A DNA stretch of 64,000 nucleotides from Caldinitratiruptor microaerophilus (GTDB taxonomy: Bacteria; Bacillota; Sulfobacillia; Symbiobacteriales; ZC4RG38): positions 2,418,001 to 2,482,000 of the forward strand of contig NZ_AP025628.1 in assembly GCF_025999835.1 (NCBI RefSeq). The letters are read 5' to 3'. The position numbers were made by a program, and so were the translations under genes. Of this stretch, positions 2,640 to 14,717 are shown in pieces (the stretch's first letter is position 1; each line of letters begins with the position of its first letter). The notes under the pieces were generated by a model. The model had not been told where the DNA came from. It was given only the letters and a program-made list of their open reading frames with translations, and made no database searches.

Positions 2640-4052
2640 TTACCGGAAGATGAACTGCCACAGGCCGAACAGCTCGACGGTGAAGAGGGCCGACACCACC
2701 CACAGGAGCGGGTGCACGTCCCGCGCCCTGCCCCGGAAGAGCTTCAGCAGCACGTAGGACACGAAGCCGAGGCCGATCCCGTGGGAGATGTTGAACGTGA
2801 GGGGCATGCCCAGGAGGGTGAGGAACGCCGGGATGCCGTCCTCCGGGTTTCCGAACTCGATCTCCCGCACCACGCTCATCATCAGGAAGCCCACGATGAT
2901 GAGGGCCGGAGCTGTTGCCGCCGACGGCACGATCCCCACGACCGGGGCGAAGAAGATCGCCAGCAGGAAGAGGAGCCCGGTGACGACGGACGTCAGGCCG
3001 GTGCGGCCGCCCTCGCCGACGCCGGAGGCCGACTCGATGTAGGTCGTGATCGAGGAGCAGCCCAGAAACCCGCCCGTGACGGCGGCGAGCGAGTCCACCA
3101 AGAGGACGTTCCGCAGCCGGGGCACCGTCCCGTCCGGGCGCAGGTATCCGGCCTCTCCGCCGACCGCCACCACGGTTCCCATCGTGTCGAAGAAGTCGGT
3201 CATGAGGAAGGCGAAGATGAACGACCAGGCGCTCAGGTTCAGGACCACGGAGAAGTCCAGCCGGCCGATCGTGGCCAGGGACTCGGCCGTGGGCAGGCTC
3301 AGCCACGTTTCGGGAAGCCGGGCCTGACCCGTGAAGAAGGCGACCAGGGTGGTGCCCAGGATCCCCAGGAGAAGCGCCCCGCGAACCCGCCGCACCACGA
3401 GCAGCAGCGTCAGCGCCAGGCCGAAGAGCGCCAGGAGCGCCGCCGGCTCCCGCAGGTTGCCGAGCGCCACGTACGTCGGGTTGGAGATCACGGGCTGCCC
3501 GCCCGGCCCCGGCACGATGGTTGCCGTGTGCGTGATGATCCCCGCGTTCTTGAGCCCGATGAAGGCGATGAAGAGTCCGATGCCGACGCCGATCGCGCGC
3601 TTCAGGTTAGCCGGGATCGCGTTCATCACGGACTCGCGGGCGCCGGTCAGCACGAGCAGGGTGACGAGCAGGCCCTCCCAGAACACGATCCCCATGGCCT
3701 GCTGCCAGGTGTATCCCGCGCCCAGGACGACGCCGAAGGCCAGCACGGCGTTGAGGCCCATGCCGGAGGCGAGAGCGAGCGGGTAGTTGCTGGCCAGTCC
3801 CATGAGAATCGTCATGACCCCGGCGCCGAGCGCCGTGGCGACCGCCGCCGCCTGCCGGGGGACGCCCGCCGCGCCGAGGATGTCCGGGTTGACGAAGATG
3901 ATGTAGGCCATCGTCATGAACGTGACGATCCCGGCGATGACCTCCGTCCGGACGTCGGTGCCGGCTTCCCGCAGCCGGAACCACCGGTCCAGGGCCCCCG
4001 ATCCGCCCACCGCCTTCGGCGCGCCTCGCTGCTCCAGAGCTTCCCGAGCCAC
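2640..4052 (-). CDS. NCS2-family purine permease (guanine/hypoxanthine type)
   Basis: A polytopic membrane protein of about 470 residues from the AzgA/PbuG branch of nucleobase:cation symporters. Family features include TEVIAGIVTFMTMAYIIFVN in the first helix, the GMGLNAVLAFGVVLG substrate region, and FLMTDFFDTMGTVVAVGGEA in the centre. I chose GTG 4052 because an AAGGAGGG site lies just upstream; longer readings run into the terminator and aptamer. It is the first gene of the pur operon here, so import of free purine bases and de novo synthesis are co-expressed under the upstream leader. Substrate preference (guanine, hypoxanthine or adenine) cannot be fixed from sequence. Confidence 0.9.
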   Translation of the reverse strand: MAREALEQRGAPKAVGGSGALDRWFRLREAGTDVRTEVIAGIVTFMTMAYIIFVNPDILGAAGVPRQAAAVATALGAGVMTILMGLASNYPLALASGMGLNAVLAFGVVLGAGYTWQQAMGIVFWEGLLVTLLVLTGARESVMNAIPANLKRAIGVGIGLFIAFIGLKNAGIITHTATIVPGPGGQPVISNPTYVALGNLREPAALLALFGLALTLLLVVRRVRGALLLGILGTTLVAFFTGQARLPETWLSLPTAESLATIGRLDFSVVLNLSAWSFIFAFLMTDFFDTMGTVVAVGGEAGYLRPDGTVPRLRNVLLVDSLAAVTGGFLGCSSITTYIESASGVGEGGRTGLTSVVTGLLFLLAIFFAPVVGIVPSAATAPALIIVGFLMMSVVREIEFGNPEDGIPAFLTLLGMPLTFNISHGIGLGFVSYVLLKLFRGRARDVHPLLWVVSALFTVELFGLWQFIFR

Positions 4053-4127
4053 CGGATGCCCTCCTTCGCAGGGTAAGCCTAGTGTGTGGAGACGCCGGGC
4101 CGGCCATCGCGGCGGCCCGAATGAAGA

Positions 4128-4168
4128 CCCGGGCGAGGTGGTTTCGTCGTGAAACCTCCCCGCCCGGG
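4128..4168 (-). terminator. Rho-independent terminator/expression platform of purine leader
   Basis: A long GC-rich hairpin: the arms CCCGGGCGAGGTGGTTTC and GAAACCTCCCCGCCCGGG flank a short loop. In the minus-strand reading it is followed by a modest T-rich stretch. Its upstream arm overlaps the conserved AAAAGCCCGGG 3' end of the aptamer at 4160-4320. Ligand binding would therefore compete with terminator formation, as in an ON-type switch. Confidence 0.7.
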
Positions 4169-4320
4169 CTTTTGTCCCGCCGGTGTAGCGCCGCAAGGCC
4201 GGCGCCTGTGCCGCTCGGTCGCAGCCGGGTGGCCCGCCCCGGCGGAGTTGCCCCGCCCGCCGGCCACCCGCGGAACCCTAGGCACACTTTCACCCGACTA
4301 TGCGGTTGGACTGCCGGCTG
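4160..4320 (-). promoter_or_regulatory. ykkC-family riboswitch, probably PRPP class
   Basis: The minus-strand leader of the purine operon contains the hallmark ykkC blocks in order: CTAGGGTTCCG (complement at 4271-4281), a CGACCGAG block resembling the GGUCCGAGAG element (about 4203-4226), and GGGACAAAAGCCCGGG (4163-4178). The ykkC fold has guanidine, ppGpp and PRPP subclasses. PRPP aptamers are known to precede purine synthesis and purine transport genes in Firmicutes. The downstream permease-purE-purB-purC operon therefore favours PRPP. The distinguishing nucleotides were not modelled. Confidence 0.75.
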
Positions 4321-4396
4321 CGCCCGCGCGAGCGCCCGGCACGAGAACATCGTAGCGGACCTCCCGATGAAATGTCAACCTCAAGGGGCGAATGTT

Positions 4397-5146
4397 TTAG
4401 TGCTGCAGGCGGCTTTTGTTCGGAACCAAGGCGTATGGAACCAGTTCGTCGCCCGCCAGCGTGAAGAGGCGGGGGGAGATCCGGTACCGGGTGGCGCGGT
4501 ACACCTCCCGTACCATCTGCGCCACGTCCTCCACCACCGACCGGTCCGCGTCGCCGAGGGCCACCAGGAAGTCACGGCCGGGCACGGCCACGACGAGCCG
4601 CCCCTCTACCTCCTGCCGCAGGGCCTGGATCTGCTCCCGCAGGAGGAGCCGGCTGGCGTCGTACCCGTCGAAGGACTCGCACACCATTCGGAGCCTGGGG
4701 CCGTGACCCAGCCGCTTCCACGGGATGCGCGGGGTCGAGCGGGCCAGGTTCTCCACGGCCGTCGGGAGCAGCTCCTGGAAGCGCTTCCCCCAGCGCTCGA
4801 GGACACCCTGCGTGACGAAACGGTACCCGTGGGCGGCGTCCACCACCAGGGCAACGCAGAGCCCGGGCGCAAGGGGGTGCGTGGGCACCGTCCGACGTGC
4901 ACCGAGCCAGTTCGCGCCCCACCGCGCGGGGATGATCTGCGGGCGGATCGACGCCACCTCGGGCGACGCGCCCGCGGACAGATTCGCCGGGCTCCGCACC
5001 TGGGCCCGACGGGAGATGAGGTGCACGGGACTCGTCCCGGTGGCCGGCGAAGGCCGGCGATGGAGGTCGCCCCACAAACCACGTCCCTCCCTTTGCCTCG
5101 GAGATCGGGATCTTCTCGGCCGGCACCGTGTCAGCGACAGCCTCAT
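4397..5146 (-). CDS. DUF1444-family protein (YtpQ-like)
   Basis: A 249-residue protein whose second half matches the DUF1444/YtpQ family: YRFVTQGVLERWGKRFQELL, then the near-invariant DGYDASRLLL around residue 165, VVAVPGRDFLVALGD, and a C-terminal YALVPNKSR. The first 90 residues are rich in Arg and Pro and weakly conserved, so the true start may be internal. However, a GGGGGG site lies 5 bases before ATG 5146. Function is unknown in the family; proteins are soluble. It stands alone between guaA and the purine leader, in the same direction. Confidence 0.75.
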   Translation of the reverse strand: MRLSLTRCRPRRSRSPRQREGRGLWGDLHRRPSPATGTSPVHLISRRAQVRSPANLSAGASPEVASIRPQIIPARWGANWLGARRTVPTHPLAPGLCVALVVDAAHGYRFVTQGVLERWGKRFQELLPTAVENLARSTPRIPWKRLGHGPRLRMVCESFDGYDASRLLLREQIQALRQEVEGRLVVAVPGRDFLVALGDADRSVVEDVAQMVREVYRATRYRISPRLFTLAGDELVPYALVPNKSRLQH

Positions 5147-7475: not shown

Positions 7476-8222
7476 TCAGAAACCGTATGGACGGGGGGCG
7501 TACCCTACCCCCGACCGGAGGCGGCCCCAGCCCGGCAAGGTCGAGCGAGCCATCGCCGGAGCGGCGAGCGGGCACACCGCCGGTCGCCTGCCCAGCGCAG
7601 GCTCGTCTCGTACCGGGCCTGGCTGGCCGGCCGCCGGCTGGAGGTCGTCCGAGCCGCGGTAGAGCGACCAGAAGACGATCGCCGCGTCGGCGATCACCTC
7701 GGCCATCCCCACGGTGCGATCCAGTTCGGCGAACCAGATCCCGAAGGGGACCGTGGCGACGCCCGCCATGACGTGCACGTGGCCGACCGGGGGTAGCGCC
7801 TTGCCCATCCCGGCGCCGGGCCGGAGCGGCCCCCGGTTCACGGTGACCTGCCCGGCCCGCCCGACCGCCGCGTCGACGGCGACGAGAAACGGTTCCCGGC
7901 CGTAGGGGGCCGCGCGCTCCCACACCTCCTTCACCCGCTCGCCGATGTTCGCGGCGTGAACCGGGTCGCTGAGGTCTCCCAGCCAGGGGCCGCCAAAGCC
8001 CTTGCGGCGGAGGAACCACCCGACGAAGGGTCCCACGGCGTCACCCGTCGAGCTGTTCGCCCCGACGAGGAGGAACACGGGAACGGACGGCCCCGCCCGT
8101 TCCGCGAGATACGCCTCGTAGAGCGCCCGCCCGAGAAGCTCGGACGCGCCCGCATCCTGGTAATGAACGTCCGCCACCAGGGCGGCGGGCCCTCGCGGCG
8201 TCCGCGCCCGCTCCCGCTTCAC
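7476..8222 (-). CDS. yyaC: YyaC-like (DUF1256) sporulation protein
   Basis: A 248-residue protein of the germination-protease-like YyaC family. The conserved core is VFLLVGANSSTGDAVGPFVG (near residue 50), then DPVHAANI, FLVAVDAAVGRAGQVTVNRG and GPLRPGAGMGKALPPVGHVH. Known members are about 200 residues; here a Pro/Arg-rich tail of about 50 residues follows the core. B. subtilis YyaC is forespore-expressed and of uncertain activity. The start is GTG 8222. A strong sigma-A-like promoter at 8303-8331 drives it, which is unusual for a strictly forespore gene. hpt and guaA follow and may be co-transcribed. Confidence 0.82.
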   Translation of the reverse strand: MKRERARTPRGPAALVADVHYQDAGASELLGRALYEAYLAERAGPSVPVFLLVGANSSTGDAVGPFVGWFLRRKGFGGPWLGDLSDPVHAANIGERVKEVWERAAPYGREPFLVAVDAAVGRAGQVTVNRGPLRPGAGMGKALPPVGHVHVMAGVATVPFGIWFAELDRTVGMAEVIADAAIVFWSLYRGSDDLQPAAGQPGPVRDEPALGRRPAVCPLAAPAMARSTLPGWGRLRSGVGYAPRPYGF

Positions 8223-14159: not shown

Positions 14160-14235
14160 TGGTGGAGCTGAGGGGAGTCGAACCCCTGACCTCGTGAATG
14201 CCATTCACGCGCTCTCCCAACTGAGCTACAGCCCC
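14160..14235 (-). tRNA. tRNA-Ala (GGC)
   Basis: The minus strand gives a full cloverleaf. The acceptor GGGGCTG pairs with CAGCTCC, the D arm is AGCTCAGTTGGGAGAGC, the anticodon GGC sits in stem GTGAAT/ATTCAC, and the T arm holds GGTTCGACTCC. CCA is encoded. It is the last gene of the five-tRNA operon. Confidence 0.97.
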
Positions 14236-14284
14236 GGGTCCTCGACCCGGGGCCGGCACCCGGAAGGTGCCGGCCCCGAAGCGC

Positions 14285-14360
14285 TGGAGCGGGTTACGAG
14301 ACTCGAACTCGCGACCTCCACCTTGGCAAGGTGGCGCTCTACCAACTGAGCTAAACCCGC
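14285..14360 (-). tRNA. tRNA-Gly (GCC)
   Basis: The acceptor GCGGGTT pairs with AACCCGC, the anticodon is GCC within CCACCTTGCCAAGGTGG, and the T loop is GTTCGAGTC. The 3' CCA is encoded. A spacer of about 50 bases separates it from tRNA-Ala. Confidence 0.97.
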
Positions 14361-14445
14361 CCGAAGCGAGACACCGGCGGACGCCCACCGGGGGACCGAG
14401 CCGCCGGGTCCGCTCCTCACGGACCCGACGCCCGGCCAAGCTTCC

Positions 14446-14521
14446 TGGTGGACCGCGTAGGACTCGAACCTACAACCGTCCGATTAAGAGTCGGATGCTC
14501 TACCAATTGAGCTAGCGGTCC
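14446..14521 (-). tRNA. tRNA-Lys (CTT)
   Basis: The acceptor GGACCGC pairs with GCGGTCC, the anticodon loop CTCTTAA reads CTT, and the T arm holds GGTTCGAGTCC. CCA is encoded. The D arm is AGCTCAATTGGTAGAGC. Confidence 0.97.
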
Positions 14522-14527
14522 GTGTCT

Positions 14528-14603
<76 letters not shown>

Positions 14604-14642
14604 ACGGCGGACCGGCGGTTCCGCCGGCCCGGCCTCTTGTTC

Positions 14643-14717
14643 TGGCTCCGGCAGCAGGATTCGAACCTGCAACCCTCCGGTTAACAGCCGGATGCTCTAC
14701 CGTTGAGCTATGCCGGA
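14643..14717 (-). tRNA. tRNA-Asn (GTT)
   Basis: The acceptor TCCGGCA pairs with TGCCGGA, the anticodon GTT sits in CCGGCTGTTAACCGG, and the T loop is GTTCGAATC. CCA is encoded. It is the first gene of the operon, about 50 bases after the promoter. Confidence 0.97.

Follow-up and report, generated by a model that had tools for sequence, protein, structure and literature searches.

A probable PRPP-type ykkC riboswitch ahead of a purine permease and purine synthesis operon in Caldinitratiruptor microaerophilus

The window analysed here is a stretch of 64,000 nucleotides (64 kb) within the closed 3,599,694-base contig of Caldinitratiruptor microaerophilus, a hot-spring bacterium related to Symbiobacterium that grows at 60 C and has a G+C content of 71% (strain JCM16183; PMC9933637). 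On the minus strand, a leader lies between a gene for a DUF1444 protein (4397-5146), which is immediately upstream of it, and a gene for an NCS2-family permease (2640-4052). Further upstream on the same strand, outside the operon of the leader, are guaA and hpt, and upstream of hpt is a gene for a DUF1256 protein (YyaC-type, sporulation-related; 7476-8222, minus strand). Five tRNA genes are clustered at 14163-14717, also on the minus strand. The features of the leader and of the genes that follow it are these.

4378-4349, minus strand: promoter-like site of the sigma-A type, TTGACA-18-TACGAT, in the gap that separates the aptamer from the DUF1444 gene
4295-4146, minus strand: ykkC subtype 2b (PRPP-type) aptamer, P0-P1-P1a-P1b-P2-P3, matched by a PRPP covariance model over the full model length
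4293-4287, minus strand: 5' side of P0, GUGAAAG, of which GUGAAA (4293-4288) pairs with UUUCAC (4154-4149)
4218-4212, minus strand: CCGAG[C]G (CCGAGCGG), in which C4213 is the pyrimidine at site 49, a position held by A in guanidine-I
4183-4160, minus strand: P3 and S-turn, CCGGCGGGACAAAAGCCCGGGCGG, with G4164 aligned to the PRPP-defining G96
4171-4124, minus strand: terminator-like hairpin, the 5' arm of which consists of the 3' strands of P3 and P0
4052-2640, minus strand: NCS2-family (xanthine/uracil/purine) permease (PF00860, 5e-35; annotated homologues are named "NCS2 family permease")
2593-2072, minus strand: purE (TIGR01162, over cut-off)
1973-666, minus strand: purB (TIGR00928, over cut-off)
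458-1, minus strand: 5' part of purC, the rest of which lies beyond the window

The promoter-like site agrees with the consensus at 10 of 12 positions, where 0.0 (sd 0.2) such sites were expected from shuffled sequence, and from it transcription is predicted to start near 4342 on the minus strand. The initial annotation had described a permease-purEBC operon and went no further because the window ends there. That description was confirmed, and the operon now takes in the de novo pathway in full: the gene order is permease-purE-B-C-S-Q-L-F-M-N-(90-aa ORF)-nudix-purH-purD, all on one strand, and these genes supply every step from PRPP to IMP, with purB in addition. The 90-aa ORF, membrane-bound by its look, and the nudix hydrolase gene lie between purN and purH (L192:6335-7070, minus strand). 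The permease reading frame opens with GTG, with AAGGAGGG at 4066-4059; no NCBIfam model named its substrate, which is presumed to be a purine.

The leader contains a complete ykkC-fold aptamer at 4295-4146. Both of the ordered ykkC blocks that had been noticed at the outset were located on the minus strand, CTAGGGTTCCG at about 4281-4271 followed by GGGACAAAAGCCCGGG at 4178-4163, and full-length matches to the Rfam family RF00442 and to our PRPP model support the P1-P1a-P1b, P2 and P3 elements of the fold. The P1b helix exceeds that of the RF00442 family by about 30 nt but is still paired. The ends of the aptamer are joined by a P0 helix of six pairs, GUGAAA/UUUCAC. In the ppGpp and PRPP classes such a helix is formed by the aptamer ends, whereas it is absent from guanidine-I aptamers, and the two groups differ likewise at site 49, which is A in guanidine-I and a pyrimidine (C49) in the ppGpp and PRPP aptamers (PMC6031431, PMC5912903). 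The residue at site 96 is G in more than 97% of PRPP aptamers and is not conserved as G among ppGpp aptamers (PMC6031431, PMC5912903), and the single change G96A, for which loss of PRPP binding and gain of ppGpp binding are reported in T. mathranii, swaps ligand specificity (PMC6031431). G4164 is equated with this site through a numbering inferred from two sources, a long-range C-G pair in the Rfam model and the contacts described in PMC6031431.

Downstream, the aptamer overlaps the terminator-like hairpin. This hairpin has a computed energy of -35.7 kcal/mol, against a mean of -20.2 for shuffled sequences (z -5.5), and since its 5' arm is made of the 3' strands of P3 and P0, the aptamer and hairpin folds are mutually exclusive. 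When the aptamer has just been completed, the ligand-competent fold (-81.6 kcal/mol) lies within 1.6 kcal/mol of the free minimum (-83.2); once the 3' arm of the hairpin has been transcribed, the hairpin state is favored by about 25 kcal/mol. PRPP riboswitches are ON switches in which P3 acts as an antiterminator (PMC5912903), and the energetics along transcription fit an ON switch of this kind, in which PRPP would hold P3 and P0 and so block the hairpin. The overlap proposed in the initial annotation stands, but the U-tract that a terminator would carry is weak: the tail after the hairpin, UCUUCAUU, is U-poor, with 4 T in 9, and a scan for consensus terminators did not report the hairpin at 4171-4124. 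The strong terminator-like hairpins of permease leaders from the order to which the window belongs (L006, L007, L008, L010 and L011) are also followed by tails with 3-5 T in 9, whereas most PRPP leaders outside this order have 5-8. Termination is therefore less certain here than in other Bacillota.

We also considered whether the aptamer might be specific for PRPP while the OFF state is something other than simple intrinsic termination, brought about by Rho, by pausing, by RNase or by a switch later in the leader. The poverty of T residues, which this leader shares with most of the order's permease leaders, would be accounted for in this way. Against this, the hairpin has been kept and overlaps P3 and P0 in the manner of characterised PRPP switches, the Shine-Dalgarno sequence follows the hairpin at a distance of about 60 nt without being part of it, and the terminators of thermophiles with 71% G+C are poorly characterised. 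We consider a departure from intrinsic termination unlikely, and retain the reading in which the hairpin would act as a terminator that PRPP prevents from forming.

The choice of ligand was approached through covariance models, as the initial annotation had proposed. At the Rfam gathering threshold there was no ykkC match in the 64-kb window. With an E-value threshold, and a search restricted to 551 bases, RF00442 (Guanidine-I, the parent family) matched 4292-4159 with 40.5 bits (E 7.1e-6), short of its gathering score of 63, and it was the sole riboswitch family in Rfam to match the leader. The shortfall is likely due to the longer P1b. Rfam thus yields the parent alone, and the proposed check does not separate the subclasses; a better score for guanidine-I, which had been named as grounds for abandoning PRPP, consequently does not refute it. 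Because the Rfam match was weak and to the parent only, subclass models were built from ykkC loci gathered by pattern and family searches and labelled from their downstream genes, loci with purE, purB, purC, purL or purF being taken as PRPP and those with ilv, leu, glt or liv as ppGpp. Every locus of the window's own order and every locus with a permease as first gene was kept out of the training. In the PRPP alignment RNAalifold found P0, P1, P1a, P1b, P2 and P3 unaided, and the training alignment held 143 cells changed on both sides of a pair, compared with 45.5 in shuffles, mostly in P1b and P2.

The covariance models were built from full aptamers. With the one for PRPP the leader scored 72.2 bits (E 3.9e-17 for a search of all 64 kb), and there was no second match to this model in the window up to an E-value of 10. 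The ppGpp model gave 60.4 bits, a margin of 11.8 bits for PRPP, and a profile of the three core blocks put PRPP (80.1 bits) ahead of ppGpp (63.2) by 16.9 bits; both comparisons are between classes whose training labels come from gene context and not from assays. When each training locus was left out in turn, this block profile assigned 34 of 35 PRPP loci and 28 of 28 ppGpp loci correctly, the one misassigned being the PRPP-labelled locus L074. All 21 permease loci favored PRPP on the profile, by 12.2 to 22.6 bits. Individual motifs divide the labelled loci in the same manner. Of the two motifs of the P0 strands, GAAAG occurs in 29/31 PRPP-labelled and 0/21 ppGpp-labelled loci, and AGGTTTC in 31/31 and 0/21; both are present in the leader. 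Conversely, CACCGTG is found in none of the 31 PRPP-labelled loci and in all 21 of the ppGpp-labelled ones, and the leader has CACCGGC. The G96-type motif is found in 31/31 PRPP-labelled loci but also in 5/21 with the ppGpp label, so that the G96 site alone is not decisive. As for site 49, loci fetched by a pattern that demands Y there give no evidence on this position, while the leader's own C does. When the PRPP model was run against the class, it returned many weaker matches, and the 12 that were inspected all had ppGpp-type cores (10 with ilv/leu genes nearby); a PRPP score must therefore be compared with that of the ppGpp model.

One alternative is that the leader belongs to the ppGpp riboswitches (subtype 2a) and activates the purine genes in the stringent response. 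Purine synthesis would be an unexpected target to be switched on in that response. The two classes differ little, and the covariance margin between them is 11.8 bits; the ppGpp riboswitch has the leader's general fold, its P0 helix and its pyrimidine at site 49, and the ppGpp model still gives 60.4 bits. Its own features are, however, CACCGTG, AGGTTCC or AGGTCCC, and ilv, leu, glt or liv genes downstream, and the leader lacks CACCGTG, carries AGGTTTC and GAAAG, and scores lower for ppGpp both on the covariance models and on the block profile. Moreover, sister genomes possess separate elements of the ppGpp type, with the other signature, in front of ilv/leu genes (L013-L015, L223). We regard a ppGpp ligand as very improbable. 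A guanidine-I riboswitch, which shares P1, P2 and P3 and the blocks CTAGGGTTCCG and GGGACAAAAGCCCGGG with the leader and is favored by the sole Rfam match, can practically be dismissed, since that match falls below gathering, site 49 is C and not A, a P0 helix is present where guanidine-I has none, there is no gene for guanidine export or a carboxylase nearby such as accompanies that class, and the order's own guanidine-I-type leaders (L004, L005), which reach 89-90 bits on Rfam, have CCGAGA and no P0 strands. The preference for PRPP over guanidine and ppGpp that had first been expressed from the downstream genes is supported by the sequence of the aptamer itself.

As a whole, these results make it very probable that the leader contains one ykkC riboswitch of subtype 2b, without a tandem partner, which responds to PRPP by switching the operon on. 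At low PRPP, the hairpin at 4171-4124 would capture the 3' strands of P3 and P0 and transcription would stop. PRPP would accumulate, for example, when purine bases and nucleotides are short, and its binding in the P3/P0 pocket would stabilize P0 and P3, block the hairpin and allow transcription to continue. The read-through product, if it is a single transcript, would encode the NCS2 purine-type permease, all of the enzymes from PurF to IMP, and PurB. In this way both of the routes to purines that consume PRPP, base uptake and synthesis de novo, would be switched together.

The assignment of the leader to an already known class, as a further PRPP-type riboswitch, is well supported by its sequence. 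It shares the P0 fold, the pyrimidine at site 49 and the G at the G96 site with the PRPP riboswitches described from Heliobacterium modesticaldum (purB) and, as an aptamer structure, from Thermoanaerobacter mathranii, as well as the predicted P3 antiterminator, the single aptamer, the purine genes downstream and a host in the Bacillota (PMC5912903, PMC6031431). It differs from them in the extra length of P1b, the weak U-tract and the NCS2 permease as first gene. With the tandem guanine-PRPP riboswitch it has the PRPP-type aptamer and a terminator-like hairpin in common, but that arrangement is recognised by a guanine aptamer 5-7 nt upstream and none was detected upstream of the leader; there was no guanine-riboswitch match at the gathering score in the window, or with E-values up to 10 in 3950-4500. 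A permease as first gene was found at 21 loci across the Bacillota in our samples. Outside the window's order there are 14 of these, and in 6 of the 14 pur genes follow the permease within the fetched stretch. In other Bacillota a permease and then purE, purC, purF or purL stand behind PRPP-type leaders at L117, L120, L127, L148 and L158, and L050 has a PRPP-type leader, a permease and, further on, purE. In the paper on the PRPP riboswitch, PMC5912903, the main text has 0 occurrences of the word "permease", and a literature search of incomplete coverage, with supplementary alignments outside it, returned no report that joins a PRPP riboswitch to a permease or ykkC to a purine permease. The association may therefore be little described, and would be a modest extension of what is known of the class. 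It implies that one PRPP-type leader can head an operon that combines base uptake with the complete IMP pathway. The leader also shows that the Rfam parent model can miss PRPP riboswitches of high G+C content at its gathering score while a subclass model finds them clearly, so that such leaders are probably under-annotated.

The same genome possesses a second ykkC RNA, which precedes an ORF resembling the large subunit of glutamate synthase (L003:2371-2491; G000:C1:999870-999990, plus strand). The core of this gltB leader, CACCGGG..CCAGGGCGGGGAGG, is PRPP-like, with +8.7 bits on the block profile and covariance scores of 70.3 versus 62.5 bits, although it lacks GAAAG and AGGTTTC. Elsewhere gltB leaders are of the ppGpp type. 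Tentatively, and with less conviction than we attach to the purine leader, both ykkC RNAs might be placed in one PRPP regulon that includes the glutamate synthase gene; if this were so, the nitrogen supply through glutamate and glutamine would be coupled to PRPP, contrary to the ppGpp-type rule for glutamate synthase genes. Variants of another kind were encountered in Fervidicola and Thermovorax (L052, L079), where ykkC RNAs with a shortened S-turn (CCCTCGGAAGG) precede a gene outside the labelled clusters and are nearer to ppGpp on the block profile, although weakly.
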